This document shows positions 1-9,079 of a stretch of 64,000 nt of DNA, piece by piece. Position 1 is the first letter of the stretch. Every line of letters begins with the position of its first letter. The position numbers and the translations under genes were made by a program. Origin of the DNA: Levilactobacillus enshiensis. Lineage in GTDB: Bacteria > Bacillota > Bacilli > Lactobacillales > Lactobacillaceae. The notes beneath the pieces were generated by a model. It saw only the letters and a program-made list of their open reading frames with translations. It made no database searches and was not told the origin of the DNA. The stretch spans positions 152,199 through 216,198 of the forward strand of contig NZ_SULH01000005.1 of the NCBI RefSeq assembly GCF_007115095.1, written 5' to 3'.

Positions 1-760
1 AGCAGCCAGGTCCCTGCGCTTAACAAAAATAACCCTTCTGTCCGGTGGCGGCTTTTAAACTCAAGACTGTGTTAGGGCGTTATACTTGCTCTCGCCATTC
101 AATCCCTATCCTGGCGGCCTCCGAAACGTGTTCCGCAAGGCAGGTCCCTGCGCTTAACAAAAATACACCTTCTGTCCGGCGGCTTTCAAACTGAATATTG
201 TGTTAGGGCGTTACACTTGCTCTCGCCATTCAATCCCTATCCTGGCGGCCTCCGAAACGTGTTCCGCAAGGCAGGTCCCTGCGCTTAACAAAAATACACC
301 TTCTGTCCGGCGGCTTTCAAACTGAATATTGTGTTAGGGCGTTACACTTGCTCTCGCCATTCAATCCCTATCCTGGCGGCCTCCGAAACGTGTTCCGCAA
401 GGCAGGTCCCTGCGCTTAGTAAAAATAAGGACCCGTGTCCGGCATCGGCTTTTAAATTCAAGACTGTGTTAGGGCGTTACATTTGCTCTCGCCATTCAAT
501 CCCTATCCTGGCGACCTCCGAAACGTGTTCCAGCAGCCAGGTCCCTGCGCTTAACAAAAATAACCCTTCTGTCCGGCGGCTTTCAAACTGAATATTGTGT
601 TAGGGCGTTACACTTGCTCTCGCCATTCAATCCCTATCCTGGCGGCCTCCGAAACGTGTTCCGCAAGGCAGGTCCCTGCGCTTAGTAAAAATAAGGACCC
701 GTGTCCGGCATAGCCGAACACGGGTCCTTATTCTCACTAATGCTCAGGACCTAAGCGCCT
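1..760. repeat. Tandem array of 131-135 bp non-coding repeats
   Basis: The marker CAGGTCCCTGCGCTTA recurs at 7, 141, 272, 403, 538 and 669, giving unit lengths of 134, 131, 131, 135 and 131. The array starts inside a unit, so it continues left of the window. Each unit holds the palindrome GCAGG-TC-CCTGC and a GGGCG...CGCCATT segment. Units end in one of two variants: a 'CTTCTGTCCGGCGGC' type or a 'GGACCCGTGTCCGGC' type. Most unit lengths are not multiples of three, so no reading frame is kept along the array. Function is not recognised. Confidence 0.85.
690..732. terminator. Strong hairpin closing the repeat array
   Basis: A 15-bp inverted repeat (690-704 with 718-732) pairs AATAAGGACCCGTGT with ACACGGGTCCTTATT. 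On the minus strand it runs into TTATTTTTA, so it may end a leftward transcript. Half of this hairpin also occurs inside one repeat unit near 426-440. Confidence 0.55.
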
Positions 761-778
761 TGCTCCACACTCTTATAC

Positions 779-1090
779 AAAAAAGACCGAAGTAACCACT
801 CTCCGGCCTCACTAGCATCATTAGAGTAATTCAACATAATCACAGATTGTAGTCAGGAAAACGCTGTTCGCTCAGATTAGCTATTGAATCTCAATATGTA
901 GTATTGAGTTAAAACCAAAATACGTTTAGTTCTGGGAAAACTAATCGTATCATGAAGAAAACTCTAATTCGTTTAATTGAAGCTTTCTTCACAAAGTTGA
1001 GAACCTATCAAATACCGCTATTTGCTAACTTCTCAACCTGATTCATTGCTATTACAAGTCCTAGTATATCAGACAGTCATAGAATTGCAA
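779..1090 (-). ncRNA. Candidate structured small transcript
   Basis: On the minus strand, a promoter-like TTGCAA (1090-1085), 16-bp spacer and TATACT (1068-1063) is followed by a series of hairpins. These include GTTGAGAA paired with TTCTCAAC, GAAGAAA with TTTCTTC, and CTCAATA with TATTGAG. A terminator-like CCGGAG/CTTCGG stem then runs into TTTTTT at 779-806. The predicted product is about 280 nt. A competing reading is a 28-30 codon ORF (start near 849, stop near 754) overlapping the terminator, so coding content is not excluded. Confidence 0.3.
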
Positions 1091-1177
1091 GCGTTTTCAT
1101 CGAGTTAGCTTATCTGAATTATTACTCCTCAGTTAACGGTTCACCCTACGGACTTTGTGAATAGTCCAAGGCCCGGA

Positions 1178-2521
1178 CTATCCCGTTGGTAACGTGACAA
1201 TCAGCTGGCCCCAGTGAAGCTTGAGTTGTAGGGCCATGGTTGCCGACTGCGAGAGCGACTCCCTTAGTTTAGAAAAGTCGAGAACTTCCTGTTCGGTCGT
1301 CACACGCGTATGGCCGTCTAACTTCGCATCGAGTGGCACGGGAAAGGTCAGTGAGAAGCGTAATCGACCAGCGACCTCTCTTAGCTCCAAAGTCACCATT
1401 GCTGGCGTTAATTCACTCACTACTGGCAGGACGACTGGCAGGGTCTGGTCAATCACGTCACCCAGTTCCTTCAACGCCGTCACGGTTGCCGTTAAAGGCT
1501 CTGGTGTCTGAACGAAGAGTTGAACCTGATTTTGCTGCGCCAACAGATAATTATGGTACAACTGAAATTTTAAACTGGGACTGGCAACATTATCGAGATC
1601 TTCAATCGTCAATTCCGCAGCATTACTGGTGGCCCAACCGGACCGAATGTCAATGTAGAGTTGCCGAAAACCGGCGTAATCCTTATCTTCAAGATAGCCC
1701 CCTAGTCCCAGCAACATGTTTTGATAGTCATGACTAAACTTACGGACTGCCGCCATCTGGCGATTGAGTTCCGCTGTGTACTGCTCACGAAATTCGTGTT
1801 GTTGGGTTTGTAGCTGCGTATGCTCCTCTTGCAAATGCGTCTGCATTAAAATATACGTGCTTAACGTCAATCCTACTAATAAAACACCAGCGATTCCCGC
1901 CAAAAAGATCAGGTACTGTTCCGATTGTTGTAGCTTTTGGAGCGAATACTCAAACAGGATGTAAGCAAGCGCCAAGACCGACATAAAGCCCAAGAAAAGG
2001 TACTCCGTCGACCGCCCCATGATATCACCAATCAAGTTTTCCATAGGCGCCCGCGTTAGCCAAATCGCAATACCCAATATTGCATAAATAATATTGTCGA
2101 TTACAATTTCGATAAAGGTGCCCCAGAAACTGACCGCAAATGACATGCTGGTTAGCTGAATCGTTGCTGAGATGACCAGCATATCGATAAATTCCAATAG
2201 CACATAGGAAAGAATCGTGACATCAATAAACGCTGGCAAATACTTTAAGTGGTGATAGTAGCTCATGATGCCAACTTCAATTCCTAGAAAGAAGACGATG
2301 GGAATCGCACCCACCAAGGTACTAGCCGGCACAAATGAGACTGCTGTATTCAGCAATGCGAATCCCGCCGACAGTAACGCACAGTACAACAAGAAAAAAT
2401 GTTCCTTATGGAGAAACCGTTCGTTACGTAACCGCGGAAACCAATAGTATTGAAAGTAAACAAACCAAAAGCCCAACGAGAAATTCGCCAGCGTGTAGCT
2501 TAACCGACTTACCGTAATCAC
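1178..2521 (-). CDS. AgrC/HPK10-like histidine kinase with degenerate ATP-binding domain
   Basis: A 447-residue sensor with about six to seven membrane segments in residues 1-230, then a coiled linker and a cytoplasmic kinase-like part. The H-box is intact: FSHDYQNML, with the phospho-accepting His at residue 264 (codon 1732-1730). The region aligned with the N-box reads DVIDQTLPVV instead of the LLDNALEAG seen in the upstream kinase, and no GxGL glycine box follows. The protein should therefore accept phosphate but hardly bind ATP. GTG start; it overlaps the stop of the upstream kinase (GTGA), with GGGAGG before it. Last gene of the RR-kinase-kinase operon. Confidence 0.85.
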   Translation of the reverse strand: MITVSRLSYTLANFSLGFWFVYFQYYWFPRLRNERFLHKEHFFLLYCALLSAGFALLNTAVSFVPASTLVGAIPIVFFLGIEVGIMSYYHHLKYLPAFIDVTILSYVLLEFIDMLVISATIQLTSMSFAVSFWGTFIEIVIDNIIYAILGIAIWLTRAPMENLIGDIMGRSTEYLFLGFMSVLALAYILFEYSLQKLQQSEQYLIFLAGIAGVLLVGLTLSTYILMQTHLQEEHTQLQTQQHEFREQYTAELNRQMAAVRKFSHDYQNMLLGLGGYLEDKDYAGFRQLYIDIRSGWATSNAAELTIEDLDNVASPSLKFQLYHNYLLAQQNQVQLFVQTPEPLTATVTALKELGDVIDQTLPVVLPVVSELTPAMVTLELREVAGRLRFSLTFPVPLDAKLDGHTRVTTEQEVLDFSKLRESLSQSATMALQLKLHWGQLIVTLPTG

Positions 2522-3852
2522 TCTGAGGACCTCCCTGGTTTGGTTAAAATAATTGTAAAATACAGCATATCACGCTTCAATTCAATCTGTAGTGCCGCGT
2601 TACTGGTCTGCGCCACGATATCGTGAACCGTGTTCAATCCCAATCCGTGACTGCCACCCTTGGTCGTATACCCCGCAGTCATCAAGCGGTTGATTTTAGG
2701 CGGATTCTGCGGCGAGACGGGATTGGCAACCGACAACTCGACCGATCCCGGATAATCCAAAACCGCACAATGAATCTCCGAACGCGTCCCCACTGGACCG
2801 GCCTCCAAGGCATTATCCAGTAGAATTCCCATGATCCGCAAGAGTTGAATGCTGTTCATCGGGATTGCCCGAACCTTATCCGGAATCTCTAAGCGCAGAC
2901 TTCGCCCCTGATTTTGCGCGGCTAATATTTTTTGAAAGAGGAGGCTTTTTAATGGCGGATCAGCCAGTCGCTGGAGGCCTTCTTCTTCCAGCCCCGCCAA
3001 CTGACTAGTGGCGTGCCACCGATCATTTAACGTCCAATAGTATGCCTCCAAACCCGCGTAATCTTCCTTATCTAGATAAACCCCCAGTTGCAACATCTGC
3101 CGTTGATAAAGTTGTTTAAACTGCCGAATTGCCTTGACCTGATCAGACATCCGGCGATCATACCGCGTGCGAATCCGCGATTCCTGGTACAGCACCCGTA
3201 ACCGCTGCCGTTGGAAGAAACTCTGAAGGAAAATAAAAAGACTGGCACTGATCAGCAGGACCATGACCAACTCGATACTTAAAGCAAACGTCAACATGGC
3301 ATGCGTAATCTCTAGCTTATGGATCACGACCGTCGACAGCTGCGATAGAAAGCCCAGACTACCCATTAAAATGGTGACGATCCACTGTTCCTTCCGACTA
3401 AATGCTAATCGTTCGAGATTCCCAGGTTGAATCCGCATCCCCGATACAGCTAAAGAAATCAGCGAGTAGATTAGAATCTGAAATCCTAAGCGACTGACAA
3501 CCACCCAAGGCTGCTGACAAAAGGGCAGTCCCCACAATTCGATCATCACTTGATGGACTAAATCATTGATCAGAACCACGACCAGATAAATCACGATAGT
3601 CGCATTCACGAAGATCAATGACATCCTTGGCCGGTGATGAATCAAGTACAGCAACGCACTTAACGGTGGCAACAGCAATGCCCACGGTCGCGCAATGACT
3701 GACGGGATCAGCGCCCATCCCATCCATTTTAAGGGTAGCTTCCAGTTTTGCGGCCGAATCAAGCCGACCCACAATGTCAAAAACCACTGGACCACTATCG
3801 CGAGGACGAAAGTAATCCAAAAGTACTGATCGAAGAAATGCACCGTTGTCAC
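2518..3852 (-). CDS. AgrC/HPK10-like histidine kinase lacking the phospho-acceptor His
   Basis: A 444-residue membrane sensor; residues 1-220 are polytopic. The ATP-binding domain looks complete: N-box LLDNALEAG (Asn347) and glycine box GYTTKGGSHGLGL. The H-box is not: the stretch aligned with FSHDYQNML of the neighbour reads FKQLYQRQM, with Gln247 in place of His, and the Asp and Asn of HDYxN are also lost. It may therefore phosphorylate a partner but not itself. Starts four bases after the response regulator stop (GTG 3852; GTG 3843 is an alternative) and overlaps the next kinase gene, so the three genes are translationally coupled. Confidence 0.85.
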   Translation of the reverse strand: MTTVHFFDQYFWITFVLAIVVQWFLTLWVGLIRPQNWKLPLKWMGWALIPSVIARPWALLLPPLSALLYLIHHRPRMSLIFVNATIVIYLVVVLINDLVHQVMIELWGLPFCQQPWVVVSRLGFQILIYSLISLAVSGMRIQPGNLERLAFSRKEQWIVTILMGSLGFLSQLSTVVIHKLEITHAMLTFALSIELVMVLLISASLFIFLQSFFQRQRLRVLYQESRIRTRYDRRMSDQVKAIRQFKQLYQRQMLQLGVYLDKEDYAGLEAYYWTLNDRWHATSQLAGLEEEGLQRLADPPLKSLLFQKILAAQNQGRSLRLEIPDKVRAIPMNSIQLLRIMGILLDNALEAGPVGTRSEIHCAVLDYPGSVELSVANPVSPQNPPKINRLMTAGYTTKGGSHGLGLNTVHDIVAQTSNAALQIELKRDMLYFTIILTKPGRSSE

Positions 3853-3856
3853 CTTC

Positions 3857-4615
3857 TTACTTCTTTAGATGCTTTTGCACCAACGTTTTGACCTCATGAA
3901 AACGGCGAGTGGCGACGTCCGTTTCATCGCCATTAGGAAAAAGCAGTCGTCGATTGGCCGTATCAATGCCGCTCACATTGTCTAAGTTAACCAAAAAACT
4001 CTTATCTGTTCGGTACAATTCCGGGTATTGATCCGCAATGTCCTTCAAGAATCCCGGGAATTCGACCAACTGACTAGCCGCATGGACCGTCACTTTATGG
4101 GGCGTTTCGGCGGTAGCAACGAAGTACACATCCCCCATCGGCAAACTAAATTTCCGGCCACCGATCGTATAGCTAAAGAGATTTTCCGTGTTGCCTAAAT
4201 AATTGGTATAACGTTGATACCCATAATCCACATTTTCCCGCAGCTTCTCATCGATCTGCGCTCTGCCGAGATCCTTAACCACAAAGTCCATGGGCTCTAC
4301 CTTCCGCTCGAACGTCAGGAGCGCCATCTCCGAATGGGTCGTCACGAAAACAATCTCAGCAAATCCCAATTGCTGTCGAATGGCAATGGCCGTTTCCAGC
4401 CCCGTTGTCTCCTCATCGGGAAACTCAATGTCGAGAAAGAACAACGCGTACTCTGGCGGATTAGCCGTCAAATCAGCCAACAATGCGTGAGGACTAGGCG
4501 TTGCTAGTCGAACTTGCATGTCAAAATCATTGATCATAATGTAGCGCTTCACGGTATCCGTGTAGTGCTTGAGCTGCTCAGGATTATCTTCACAGAGATA
4601 AACGGCTAACACCAA
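3857..4615 (-). CDS. LytTR-family response regulator (AgrA/ComE type)
   Basis: A receiver domain (about residues 1-130; acidic CEDN near the start, phospho-acceptor Asp in FFLDIEF, and THSEMAL) is followed by a LytTR DNA-binding domain (about 150-250, with FLVNLDNVSGID and the RRFHEVK end). The longest frame opens with GTG at 4621, directly after AAAGGAG; TTG 4615 or GTG 4612 has better spacing, so 4615 is used. It should act on promoters with paired 9-bp direct repeats, such as the pair at 4709-4738 in its own promoter. Its kinases are the two genes downstream. No pheromone gene was recognised nearby. Confidence 0.85.
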   Translation of the reverse strand: MVLAVYLCEDNPEQLKHYTDTVKRYIMINDFDMQVRLATPSPHALLADLTANPPEYALFFLDIEFPDEETTGLETAIAIRQQLGFAEIVFVTTHSEMALLTFERKVEPMDFVVKDLGRAQIDEKLRENVDYGYQRYTNYLGNTENLFSYTIGGRKFSLPMGDVYFVATAETPHKVTVHAASQLVEFPGFLKDIADQYPELYRTDKSFLVNLDNVSGIDTANRRLLFPNGDETDVATRRFHEVKTLVQKHLKK

Positions 4616-4708
4616 GATCACACTCCTTTCAATCAGTCTTAGCTAGCTAATTAGTGCTGCCATAGCACTACCCTGTCGTTTTACCGACTGTATCCTAAAT
4701 ATAAATAC

Positions 4709-4738
4709 TATGTAACCCTATCACCCACTAATGTAACC
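4709..4738 (-). promoter_or_regulatory. LytTR direct repeats in the response-regulator promoter
   Basis: On the minus strand GGTTACATT (4738-4730) and GGTTACATA (4717-4709) are separated by exactly 12 bases. This is the 9-12-9 geometry of AgrA/PlnC/ComE-type regulators. An AT-rich -10 region follows toward the gene. It suggests autoregulation of the operon. Confidence 0.6.
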
Positions 4739-4852
4739 TGAAAATTCAATAGTTGCAATTCTTTTCGTCACGGAGCTTTCAAACTGAGCATAACTATTTC
4801 GCTATTTTACTAACCAGTCTATTTACTATTAAATTTAGGGCGACCGCTAGCC

Positions 4853-4884
4853 ATTAAAAAAGAACCACCCCATAGGTGATCCTT
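4853..4884 (-). terminator. Intrinsic terminator, leftward
   Basis: On the minus strand AAGGATCACC pairs with GGTGGTTCTT (two G-U pairs), followed by TTTTTA. It would end a leftward transcript from the decayed region 4890-5180. Confidence 0.6.
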
Positions 4885-5056
4885 CTTTAAGTGGATTATT
4901 TAATTGCCGGTGCTGGCTTTATTAGCACTCCCCCAAGTTCTAACGTCGCATAACCCCTAGGCATTCCAATAACCATCACTTACTCTTCAGCTCATTGCTG
5001 TAAAACTGCCGTTCGCCTAAGTTGTGTTTGACGTTCTATCAGGCCGCCCGTATTCA

Positions 5057-5178
5057 TTAGATAATCGTGGGATGCAAGGTCAGAATCAATCCGTTTGAAT
5101 CGCTCACACTTTGATCCATTGACCCGCAAAATCAGTTGCCGTAAAACTGACCCCTTCCAACTGTTACTACTTTAACAT
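5057..5178 (-). pseudogene. VOC (glyoxalase-like) C-terminal remnant
   Basis: Minus-strand fragments in adjacent frames read like the end of a VOC-superfamily protein: LEGVSFTATDFAGQWIKV, then SDSNGLILTLHPTII and a stop. A GTGTG duplication shifts the frame between the two parts, and stop codons lie just before LEG. The sequence between here and 4896 has only short frames; the last is a 26-codon frame at 4976-4896 (starts MVIGMPRGYATLEL) that ends just before the terminator at 4853-4884. Assignment rests on the shape of the C-terminal motif only. Confidence 0.35.
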
Positions 5179-5252
5179 GCTTTCTACCTAGCAAACGTTA
5201 AGCCGCACAAACGTCATTTTTTTAACGTTCAAGCGGAGTTTAACAGCACAAT

Positions 5253-5675
5253 TTAATTGTGCTTGAGTGAATAAGTGACAAAACCACCCAAAATAATGGG
5301 GGCCATGAAGGCCAGTGCGATGTCGATCAGTAACCGCCAGTACCAGGCCTGTTTCGACTTAGGCGCTGCCGTTAACCGTGGCGCACGTTCTGGCTTGGCC
5401 ATTTTTTCGTAGACCGACGCCGTTTCATCGGCTGCCTGTCTGCGTCGCCGTCGCCGCCGAAAGACCGGTGCTTGTAGCTCCCGGTCGTCCATCAAGATGA
5501 CCCACTTGGCAAATGGAAAACAAACCCAACTCAACAGAAAATACCAATCCGCACCCGTAAATCCGCCAATCAACTGACCCTTCGCGTAATTAAAGTGACC
5601 CAAAACGGCAATAATCAGGACAAAGATCAGGCCAATCCCCGCCTGCTTTAACCAAAAACGACCAAAAGCTTTCAT
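5253..5675 (-). CDS. Small membrane protein with poly-Arg loop
   Basis: A 140-residue protein, not recognised. Hydrophobic segments lie near residues 12-30, 43-60 and 112-134. A cytoplasmic-looking loop holds seven to eight consecutive arginines (about residues 73-80), followed by a charged, proline-containing stretch. GGGAG lies seven bases before the ATG. It diverges from the greA-like gene, with 73 bp between the two starts. A membrane-anchored regulator or wall-stress protein would be a guess; no family could be named. Confidence 0.6.
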   Translation of the reverse strand: MKAFGRFWLKQAGIGLIFVLIIAVLGHFNYAKGQLIGGFTGADWYFLLSWVCFPFAKWVILMDDRELQAPVFRRRRRRRQAADETASVYEKMAKPERAPRLTAAPKSKQAWYWRLLIDIALAFMAPIILGGFVTYSLKHN

Positions 5676-5748
5676 CTGACAACTCCCTTTTCTTTTTAAA
5701 ACTAACTATGTAGAATGGAGACAACTCTGAAATAAATGAGGTGTTTCA

Positions 5749-6234
5749 ATGGCAAATTCAGGTGACTTCAATCCCATCACAGCGGCCGGCTACCGCGACT
5801 TACAGCATAAAATTGCGGCGTTGGAGGCCGACCGACCGGAAAAAATCGCAATTTTAGCCGAAGCCCGGGCCCACGGCGACCTCTCAGAAAATGCCGAGTA
5901 CTCCGCCGCCAAGCGTGACCTGCGCCATTTGGAAAGTCAGTTACGTTTCTTCAACAAGCAGCTACAGTACGCCAAGGTGGTCGATCCCACCAATAGTGAC
6001 GTGGTCGAGCTGGGCAAATGGATCACCGTGGCCTTCATGGATGACAATGACCAGGAAACTTATCAACTCGTTGGCACCCAAGAAGCCGACCTCGATGCCG
6101 GTAAGATCACGCGGGTCTCGCCATTAGGCCGCGCGTTGTTAGGTCATCATCCAGGTGATACCGTCACGATTCAAGCGCCTAATGCCAATTATGATGTCCA
6201 CATTATCACGGTCAGCTTGACGGCACCAGCCTAA
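5749..6234 (+). CDS. GreA/GreB-family transcript cleavage factor
   Basis: 161 residues, normal length for GreA. The N-terminal coiled coil (about 10-80) carries the tip sequence DLSENAEYSAAK, whose acidic residues enter the RNA polymerase secondary channel and promote cleavage of backtracked RNA. The C-terminal FKBP-like domain (about 85-158) ends with ITRVSPLGRALLGHHPGD. The N-terminal 'SGDFNPITAAGYRDLQ' differs from housekeeping GreA, so this may be a second paralogue. Monocistronic: own promoter region upstream and a terminator at 6252-6297. Confidence 0.85.
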   Translation: MANSGDFNPITAAGYRDLQHKIAALEADRPEKIAILAEARAHGDLSENAEYSAAKRDLRHLESQLRFFNKQLQYAKVVDPTNSDVVELGKWITVAFMDDNDQETYQLVGTQEADLDAGKITRVSPLGRALLGHHPGDTVTIQAPNANYDVHIITVSLTAPA

Positions 6235-6251
6235 TATTAGTATACCATTAG

Positions 6252-6297
6252 AAAATACCGGTTAGACTTGCGCTCGCAAATCTCGCCGGTATTTTTT
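6252..6297 (+). terminator. Terminator of greA-like gene
   Basis: AAAATACCGG (6252-6261) pairs with CCGGTATTTT and runs into TTTTTT. Confidence 0.8.
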
Positions 6298-6461
6298 ACG
6301 TGTATTTCTAAAAGTTGCGCCTTCCAAAGTACGTTCCTTGCCTGTTCTAGTCACCACAGTGGGACTGAAACTAGGCACAATGGTGGTTGTGTCGCCTTAC
6401 TAGCTGGCAGATCGATGCGACTGAGACGAGGCAGGCAGCTCAACTTTCAGCCTTTAGACCT

Positions 6462-6508
6462 CAAAAGGAGCCCGCCCCCGACCACAACGGTCAGTAGCGT
6501 GCTCCTCA
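6462..6508 (-). terminator. Terminator of phosphoketolase gene
   Basis: On the minus strand AGGAGC (6506-6501) pairs with GCTCCT (6471-6466), with an inner GACC/GGTC stem, then TTTTG. It lies about 25 bp after the xpk stop. Confidence 0.6.
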
Positions 6509-6532
6509 TTTTTAAATCAAACTATTAATGGA

Positions 6533-8911
6533 CTACTTCAGTGGCTTCCATTGCCAAGCGTTAACTTCTGGCAAGTCGGTCCCAACCTCACGGATGTAAG
6601 CATTGTGCTTAGCAACCATGTCGTCCATCCGTTGTGCAAAGTAAGCACCCTTAACGGCGTACTCATCAATATCACTAACGGCTTCCTTAGCCAAGTGGTA
6701 ACGGTCCAAGTGGTTCAGGACACGCATGTCAAATGGCGTGGTGATATCACCGTTTTCACGGTAACCATGAACGTGTAAGTTGTGGTTGTGACGGTCGAAG
6801 AAGAGATCCTTAACCAGGTCTTCAAAGCCATGGAAGGCAAAGATAACTGGCTTATCCGTCGTAAACAGACGGTCGAATTCTTCGTCGGAAATCCCACGAG
6901 GGTCCAACTTAGGTGAACGCAACTTCAACAGGTCAACCACGTTGATGAAGCGCATCTTCATTTCAGGGAATTCGTCATGCAACAATGAAATTGCGGCTAA
7001 TGATTCCCAAGTTGGTTCAGTACCAGCTGCGGCGAAGACGATATCAGGTTCTTGACCTTGGTCAGTAGATGCCCAGTCGATGTAGCCCAACCCATTGTGA
7101 ACCAGGTTAGTGGCTTCATCAATGGAGAACCATTGTGGACGTGGGTGCTTAGACGTCACGATCAAGTTGATCTTTTCGCGGCTCCGGAATGCAACGTCAC
7201 CGACAGCTAACAAGGTGTTGGCATCGGCTGGCAAGTATTCACGGATAAAGGCTGGCTTCTTTTCAGCTAAGTGGGTCAACATCCCAGGATCTTGGTGGGT
7301 GTAACCGTTGTGGTCTTGCTGGAAGACAGTTGACGTGTCCACGAAGTTCAATGATGGATAGTCATGACGCCAGTCTTGTTCAGCAGCCTTACGCAACCAC
7401 TTGAAGTGTTGCGTCAACATGGAGTCCACAACACGACCAAATGATTCGTAAGTTGCGAAGTAACCATGACGACCAGTCAGAACGTAACCTTCCAACCAAC
7501 CTTCAGCTTGGTGTTCGGAAAGTTGTGAGTCAATGATCCGACCAGAGTGGGCCATGTTTTCATCGTTTGGTTCATGAATGTCTTCCATCCATTGACGCTT
7601 CCCATAGTCCAGTGCGTCATAAAGCCGGTTAGACTTGGTTTCGTCAGGGCCAAAGCCACGGAACGTGTCTGGGTTCAACTTCATAACATCAGCCAGGTAC
7701 TTGGACCAAACTAACATGTCTTGCGCAATCGTCTTGCCATGTTCAGTCGTGTCAACGGCGTACTTCTTGTAGTCAGGCAACTTCAATGGTTCTGGCTTGA
7801 TCCCACCATTAGTGATTGGGTTCATTGCCATCCGTTGATCACCCTTAGGCGTCATTGCACGGACGTCAGCCTTCAGTGAGCCATCTTCGTTGAACAATTC
7901 TTCTGGCTTGTAAGACTTCAACCAGTCAGTCAACATGTCAACGTGTTCCATGTCGCCAGCGTCAACAGGAATTGGCACTTGGTGCGCACGGAAGGAGCCT
8001 TCGATAGGGTTACCATCTAAGTCCTTCTTAGGACCAGTCCAGCCCTTAGGTGAACGCACAATGATCATTGGCCATACAGGTAATGAGTCATCGTTGTTGT
8101 CACGCGCATTCTTTTGAATGTTCTTGATTTCAGGGATGACTTCGTCCATGACCTTAGCCATGTCTTCGTGGGCCTTCATGTGGTCTGCGCCATCCGTTTC
8201 GACAAAGTGAGGATCCCAGCCCATGCCTTGGAAGTACTTCGTTAAGTCTTCGTCGGACATCCGTGACAGGATAGTTGGGTTAGAAATCTTGAACCCGTTC
8301 ATGTTGATGATTGGTAATACCGCACCATCTTTGATCGGGTTAATAAATTTGTCTGAGAACCATGAAGCGGCCAAAGGACCAGTTTCAGATTCCCCATCAC
8401 CGATTTCAACAGCGGCAATGACATCTGGGTTGTCTAAGATCGCACCAGTCCCATGAGAAAGGCTGTAACCCAGTTCCCCACCTTCGTGGATAGAACCTGG
8501 GGTTTCAGGTGCGGCATGAGAAGCAACCCCACCTGGGAAGGAGAATTGTTTGAATAAACGCTTCAAACCAGCTTCGTCTTGAGAGATGTTTGGATAAATT
8601 TCACTGTAACTACCATCAAGATATGAGTTAGAAACCATAACTTGACCACCGTGACCTGAACCTTCAATGTAGAACATGTTCAAGTTGTACTTTAAGATCG
8701 CCCGGTTTAAGTGAGCATAAATAAAGTTTTGAGAAACAATCGTTCCCCAGTGACCAATTGGCTTAATCTTTACATCATCAGAGGTTAAGTCACGCTTCAA
8801 TAATGGGTTGTCACGCAAGAATAACTGTCCGACTGACAGGTAGTTCGCTGCACGCCAGTACTTGTCAACGCCTTCCAAGTATGCCTTGGAGTCGAAGTCT
8901 GTATTTGCCAT
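6533..8911 (-). CDS. xpkA: Xylulose-5-phosphate/fructose-6-phosphate phosphoketolase
   Basis: 792 residues, the usual length. This thiamine-diphosphate enzyme splits xylulose 5-phosphate into acetyl-phosphate and glyceraldehyde 3-phosphate, the defining step of heterolactic fermentation. Visible family sequence includes EGSGHGGQ (about 83-90), the signature [14 protein letters not shown], the ThDP motif [16 protein letters not shown], and [28 protein letters not shown] precedes the ATG. Promoter TTGACT-16-TATGAT at 9043-9016, with a palindrome shared with the adjacent GntR gene directly upstream. Acetate kinase and AdhE elsewhere in the window handle its acetyl-phosphate product. Confidence 0.97.
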
Positions 8912-9015
8912 GTAATTAACACTCCTTCTTTGAATTCATAACTGCATAATCTAGTTGATAGAAAATGTGTAAAATTTATCTCGTAGTGAATACCGGGATG
9001 ACTTTTACAGCCTCT

Positions 9016-9043
9016 ATCATAGGCCGTTTTACAGAAAAGTCAA
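9016..9043 (-). promoter_or_regulatory. xpkA promoter
   Basis: Minus strand TTGACT (9043-9038), 16-bp spacer, TATGAT (9021-9016); the start codon is 105 bp further on. Confidence 0.6.
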
Positions 9044-9045
9044 CC

Positions 9046-9079
9046 TTTTTGTAAATTGGACCGTATCAATTTATAAAAA
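9046..9079. promoter_or_regulatory. Candidate GntR operator upstream of xpkA
   Basis: The palindrome TAAATTG-N8-CAATTTA (9052-9073) is extended by CTTTTT and AAAAAG outer arms. The half-site TAAATTGGACCG recurs upstream of the gntR gene at 10112-10101. It sits just upstream of the xpkA -35 box. Confidence 0.5.

Follow-up and report, generated by a model that had tools for sequence, protein, structure and literature searches.

Complementary motif losses in neighbouring paralogues suggest a split AgrC-type histidine kinase in Levilactobacillus

A 64,000-nucleotide stretch of the genome of Levilactobacillus enshiensis (contig NZ_SULH01000005.1, positions 152,199 to 216,198; hereafter the window, in whose numbering positions are given) carries on its minus strand the genes for an AgrA/LytTR-type response regulator (RR) and, downstream of it, for two membrane sensor proteins, first K1 and then K2 (Table 1). 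Judged by the motifs, the ATP site and the phospho-acceptor of a histidine kinase lie on different proteins: K1 has the ATP-binding boxes and no phospho-accepting His, and K2 has the acceptor motif and a degenerate ATP domain. We consider it probable that RR-K1-K2 is an AgrC-type two-component system with a kinase divided between two full-length paralogues; phosphorylation would occur in trans, from K1 to K2, because ATP site and acceptor lie on separate proteins. The end of the RR gene and the start of the K1 gene are 4 nt apart. The strand, the positions and the decisive residues (Gln247 in K1, His264 in K2, the boxes kept and lost) had been given in a preliminary description of the locus; all were read again and found correct, and the overlap of the K1 and K2 genes by 4 bases (2518-2521) and the LytTR regulator upstream of them (3857-4621) were confirmed.

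K1 of L. enshiensis carries FKQLYQ where most relatives show F-K/R-H-D-Y/F-Q, and it matches the Pfam family HATPase_c_5 (8.2e-10). K2 contains FSHDYQNML with His264; the N-box Asn and the G-box are both absent, and a Pfam search with K2 gave no family at E<=1. Within the genus, K2 was matched in 34 of 35 genomes, the remaining one being 72% complete, and each of these 34 also has K1; the pair was present in all 34 searched Levilactobacillus genomes that are at least 90% complete. Seven species have the arrangement RR-K1-K2-K2b, i.e. one K1 and two K2. After an 81-aa piece of K2 in one genome (L037) had been dropped, 41 K2 proteins were available (34 first and 7 second copies), and neither N-box nor G-box was found in any of them. 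Conversely, HDxxN was found in 0 of 34 K1, with a His alone in five. The residue next to the His column (H+1) is T, L, N, I, Q or R in the 34 K1 and never D/E, position H+4 is K, D, R, Q or G and never N/T, and the first glycine of the G-box is replaced by D in two. The preliminary description had asked whether the losses are complementary in the gene pairs of relatives as well. Indeed, the same division was found in 34/34 K1, 34/34 K2 and 7/7 K2b, and in none of the 34 Levilactobacillus genomes did either partner possess every box. Other His residues of K1 were considered as a substitute acceptor in the DHp and rejected; at least 80% of K1 share a His at columns 73, 178 and 184 in the membrane part and at column 402 in the G-box, none of them in the DHp helix.

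Relatives from outside the genus were compared after removal of duplicates, which left 81 distinct kinases. H, D/E, N and both glycines were present in 78 of them, a count that is biased toward kinases with His since most of these relatives came from a pattern scan that included the His box (80 of 125 loci were kept, 30 of them Levilactobacillus). The three incomplete ones are the two genes of one locus (L158, see below) and a truncated copy (L215). Free of this bias are 22 relatives that were fetched with the K1 profile, and all of them have H-D and both ATP boxes. Because both proteins of a tandem pair in another outside locus (L212) have every box, tandem arrangement alone does not, by this motif comparison, bring motif losses. 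Since all 34 loci show the same division while 78 of 81 outside relatives keep the full set, the complementary loss is, at the level of motifs, genus-wide and beyond chance.

The substitution pattern of both genes is that of purifying selection. Median omega was 0.037 for K1 and 0.037 for K2 (Nei-Gojobori, 24 species pairs) and 0.02-0.05 in every region of both, including the dead ATP domain of K2, with 0.046 for K2 from residue 291 to the end and 0.065 for K2b over 4 pairs; these values are rough, since dS (synonymous divergence) is near 1 or above and the species pairs are non-independent. Over 561 non-independent pairs, mean identity in the DHp was 0.72 for K1 versus 0.80 for K2, in the ATP part 0.69 versus 0.54 and in the N-box helix 0.68 versus 0.37. 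This opposite constraint on the regions of the aligned K1 and K2 fits what the split model predicts. The two genes overlap or lie at most 4 nt apart in 34/34 genus loci, and the phospho-acceptor region FLDIE of the RR is kept in all 33 regulators read, two of them as a piece only (the second pieces of split regulators in L036 and L049 were dropped). Complementary loss, genus-wide purifying selection and the tight operon together support a split kinase.

The closest solved structures to K1 and K2, by sequence and by fold, are the AgrC structures 6e52 and 4bxi; 6e52 was matched by the K1 profile at 1.3e-34 and by the K2 profile at 2e-9. K2 is related to AgrC-type (HPK10) kinases by descent but, lacking N-box and G-box, is not a complete kinase. 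K1 and K2 are not filed as staphylococcal AgrC because their scores of 116.4 and 45.9 bits are far below the cut-off of 500 of NCBIfam NF046015. The model of K2, with a mean predicted local distance difference test (pLDDT) score of 75.7, was aligned to the AgrC ATP domain 4bxi with a Z of 15.8 and a root-mean-square deviation of 2.7 over 138 residues at 14% identity, and the dead ATP domain of K2 is predicted to keep the GHKL fold despite the lost boxes. The K1 model is weaker (mean pLDDT 64.6); its ATP domain gave a template modelling (TM) score of 0.84, by target length, against 4bxi.

According to the proposed mechanism, K1 would bind ATP and offer no phospho-acceptor motif, and K2 would provide the acceptor HDxxN and be unable to bind ATP. 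K1 and K2 would pair via their DHp helices at the membrane, the ATP domain of K1 would phosphorylate His264 of K2 in trans, and K2 would pass the phosphate on to the Asp of the LytTR regulator. K2 is probably also the phosphatase for the regulator, since K2 alone keeps the Asn of H-D/E-x-x-T/N. In HisKA kinases, kinase activity is described to depend on the acidic neighbour of the His and phosphatase activity on the Thr/Asn (PMC3510030), and by analogy we infer the same roles in the AgrC type. K1 and K2 may work only as a heterodimer, not as two homodimers touching each other, and their two membrane halves may read two signals.

The Asn kept in K2 would also suit a different explanation, in which the RR obtains its phosphate from another source (acetyl phosphate or a kinase that is not of the AgrC type), with K2 serving only as phosphatase or sink for the RR and K1 as a nucleotide-dependent modulator of K2. 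The Asn is the phosphatase residue in the HisKA work (PMC3510030), and K2 is without the motifs for making its own phosphate. However, His and Asp are kept in 41/41 K2 and K2b, the acidic residue serves kinase and not phosphatase activity in the same work on HisKA kinases (PMC3510030), and K1 keeps a whole ATP site, all of which makes this explanation unlikely.

K1 could also be an inhibitory partner that blocks or gates K2, as RetS does, with K2 being phosphorylated by another kinase. RetS/GacS heterodimers are described (PMC12189002), and structure 7n0e was listed in the fold search. An inhibitory role would not require every residue of the ATP site to be retained, yet 34/34 K1 retain them, and besides the pair no HDYxN-type kinase was seen in the genome of L. 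enshiensis (3.07 Mb) among the matches read: HATPase_c_5 matched at nine places at E<=1, K1 among them, and six of the others, all but L242 and L245, were read and carry other kinds of H-box. Across the genus, most extra HATPase_c_5 matches at 1e-5 fall in frames of 540-575 aa; those read outside L. enshiensis are six, with frames of 326-464 aa, and the HDYxN box was found in none. No other HDYxN-type kinase that might replace K1 or K2 was seen among the matches read, and we regard an inhibitory role of K1 as very unlikely. In two genus genomes (L246, L250), GHKL-type kinases with an HEIKKDY box were noticed, which is unlike the HDYxN type.

The conservation of the DHp helices in both proteins (mean identity 0.72 and 0.80) would be compatible with phosphoryl transfer by contact of two homodimers, K1-K1 with K2-K2, in place of a heterodimer. 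The ancestral AgrC-type phosphorylation takes place within one DHp dimer, which argues against such a contact and leaves it only a slight chance. Decay, with drift having removed a different part from each of two dying kinases, which the preliminary description had itself raised against its proposal, has next to no chance and is rejected genus-wide, since damaged copies occur only in single genomes (L036, L037, L049) and, already in contradiction to it, the pair is retained throughout the genus with the losses the same way round in 34/34 and an omega of 0.037 for both genes (median 0.02-0.05 per region, the dead ATP domain of K2 included).

Several points weigh against the split kinase that we favour. 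The strongest of them are the five K1 that have a His at the acceptor column (L034, L049, L054, L055, L057), because this His, although its acidic neighbour is absent, might still be phosphorylated. These five are unlikely to be remnants of a complete kinase, since parsimony gave Gln as the root state with two gains of His needed, on a K1 tree that was built without the His-box columns and has several weak deep branches. Further, the model of K1 is of low confidence in the DHp region (pLDDT <50 over residues 215-286), the omega values are rough as stated, and K2 keeps a constrained pseudo-ATP domain that is superfluous in a simple split model; this domain might keep the DHp in place, hold K1 back or assist the docking of the regulator. 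Damage was found in single genomes: the regulator of L049 is interrupted by a transposase gene (insertion-sequence-type region 8089-9264), L062 carries two insertion-sequence-type genes between RR and K1 (4877-6707), K2 is in two frames in L037 and so is the regulator in L036. These are single cases in an otherwise conserved set, and some may be assembly errors. AgrC-type kinases are generally taken to work in trans. Some histidine kinases act in cis; for MtrB this is reported from mutant complementation and competition tests (PMC5956149). In sum, the split kinase of the preliminary description, with one subunit phosphorylating the other, gains from the complementary loss, the purifying selection and the operon, and its strict form loses from the five K1 with His.

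Building on the split kinase, the pair may be a membrane heterodimer that works as a logic element, in which kinase activity belongs to K1-K2 only, K2-K2 acts as a dedicated phosphatase and K1-K1 stays silent; we put this forward tentatively, as something that could well turn out otherwise. If true, the output would be set by the ratio and the ligand state of the two sensors, possibly in a switch-like manner as modelled for CheA3/CheA4, and in the species with RR-K1-K2-K2b one ATP subunit would serve two acceptors, giving three inputs. A similarly complementary pair from outside the genus (L158) would be an independent origin.

This second arrangement of complementary kinases was found around a LytTR-like regulator in a Lachnospiraceae metagenome bin (L158; WRBB01000010.1, 5953-8434). 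FEQDYQT and an N-box are present in the first kinase, whose G-box lies in a different frame beyond a stretch of 13 C; this stretch may be a sequencing error or a phase-variable run. The second kinase has FKHDYQN and stops before any ATP domain. L158 was the only outgroup locus examined that looked complementary. When 398 genomes sampled from the phylum were searched for independent cases, two matches were obtained at 1e-22; the case described here rests on a single metagenome bin.

As to the origin of the pair, a quick tree (135 rows, 130 columns around the DHp; duplicates and outgroup rows <350 aa dropped) placed K1 in one group (support 99) and K2 with K2b in another (99), and the K1 and K2 groups join two outgroup rows at a support of 90. 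K1 and K2 likely arose by tandem duplication within the lineage, which is not proved because long branches meet in this tree. The closest outside relative by K1 (L100/L220, 6.9e-53) is one complete kinase beside one regulator. At 1e-40 the K2 profile matched 25 of 397 genomes of the family, all Levilactobacillus; weaker K2-like proteins elsewhere were not sought. Among named records, the closest K2 are those of Levilactobacillus koreensis, andaensis and fujinensis with 81-82% identity. The genes next to the cluster, named here by resemblance, would encode a GreA-like protein and, on the same side, a membrane protein of 140 aa; on the opposite side they would encode a pseudouridine-synthase-like protein and a UspA-like one. 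Of the 34 loci, some of which stop at contig ends, 32, 29, 26 and 25, respectively, contain a homologue of these genes, and gene order was compared in the window and four relatives. Because the homologues recur in most loci, the flanking genes point to vertical descent of the cluster.

Table 1 Features of the RR-K1-K2 locus in the window
Feature	Position	Strand	Remarks
Promoter-like stretch TTGCAA-17-TACATT upstream of RR	4729..4759	-	kept across the aligned upstream regions of 33 loci
LytTR response regulator (RR), AgrA/LytTR-type	3857..4621	-	Pfam LytTR 3.2e-13, Response_reg 1.7e-7
K1, membrane sensor and putative ATP-binding subunit, without phospho-accepting His	2518..3852	-	444 aa
K1 codon 247 (Gln) at the His column	3112..3114	-	Q 24, R 5, H 5 of 34 orthologues
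K1 N-box Asn347 (LLDNALEA)	2812..2814	-	Asn in 34/34
K1 G-box GYTTKGGSHGLGL	2635..2673	-	HGxGL 34/34; first Gly 32/34
K2, membrane sensor and putative phospho-acceptor (DHp) subunit, degenerate ATP domain	1178..2521	-	447 aa
K2 H-D-Y-Q-N motif (His264, Asp265, Asn268)	1718..1732	-	HDYQN in 41/41 K2/K2b
K2 pseudo-ATP domain, residues 332-447	1181..1528	-	predicted GHKL-like fold; N-box and G-box absent

We read the conserved stretch TTGCAA-17-TACATT as a promoter (-35 and -10 boxes, 17-base spacer) and not as a LytTR repeat. A regulon search with the upstream stretch in the genome of L. enshiensis found one exact copy, so no regulon or target gene emerged; matches were obtained at 10 places versus 4 for the reversed pattern, nine of the 10 with three mismatches. 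Further upstream of the RR, a conserved non-coding stretch was observed on the minus strand at 4820-5060 (GAGTAAG ... CTTGGGGGAGTG ... terminator-like hairpin and T run). Its core was found in 33 of 34 genus loci and it is present in a single copy in the genome of L. enshiensis. Apart from a small stem and the hairpin at its end, the alignment gave little support for structure, and an Rfam search of window positions 1-6300 gave no match at this stretch, which is a candidate small RNA or leader. An Rfam hit to mir-2058 at 679-743 (score 33.6, gathering threshold 90) was taken as chance. Downstream of K2, positions 1-711 hold a tandem array of about 5 copies of a 131-base unit. Neither agrB nor agrD was recognised by eye near the locus, among open reading frames of at least 50 aa around it in the window, of at least 30 aa to the left and of at least 100 aa in four relatives; no search aimed at them was made, and a short agrD may escape such a scan.

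A census of 2011 lists for L. brevis ATCC 367 three LytR/HPK10 genes: a cluster of one RR with two histidine kinases (PMC3040137). This cluster is most likely the same locus as RR-K1-K2, and section 5 of the census does not mention the motif losses (PMC3040137). In the open-licence literature searched, no paper on a split AgrC-type kinase was found. Split kinases as such are already known, CheA3/CheA4 being established, and the division of an AgrC-type kinase by motif loss suggests a new form of this known kind. Among the known cases, Rv0600c and Rv0601c of Mycobacterium tuberculosis, one of which bears the ATP domain and the other the His, are not known to be of the AgrC type. Like K1 and K2, these two kinase genes are described to cooperate with one regulator, TcrA (PMC9274095). 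Hik36/Hik43 (PilL-N/PilL-C) of Synechocystis is likewise reported as a split kinase with one regulator (PMC7656254), but there a CheA homologue is split into two genes. Of CheA3 and CheA4 from Rhodobacter sphaeroides, neither is reported to autophosphorylate alone, and CheA3 becomes phosphorylated when the two are mixed; CheA4 has the ATP domain, CheA3 is the phospho-acceptor, and free CheA3 is described as the main phosphatase (PMC3591291). Unlike this chemotaxis kinase, which was split by loss of whole domains, K1 and K2 are AgrC-type membrane sensors that keep their domains and lose motifs. AgrC of Staphylococcus aureus, the partner of the LytTR regulator AgrA, resembles K1 and K2 most closely among solved structures, but is a single kinase with all boxes.

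The Levilactobacillus pair is a tractable system in a food bacterium for asking how heterodimer kinases arise, what the role of a dead ATP domain under strong selection is, and whether separation of kinase and phosphatase yields switch-like signalling. Complementing mutant kinases have been used in the laboratory in cases earlier than MtrB. They serve to distinguish phosphorylation in trans from that in cis, as in the work on MtrB (PMC5956149), and in Levilactobacillus a pair that complements in this way appears to have become fixed genus-wide by evolution, in membrane kinases of the peptide-sensor type.
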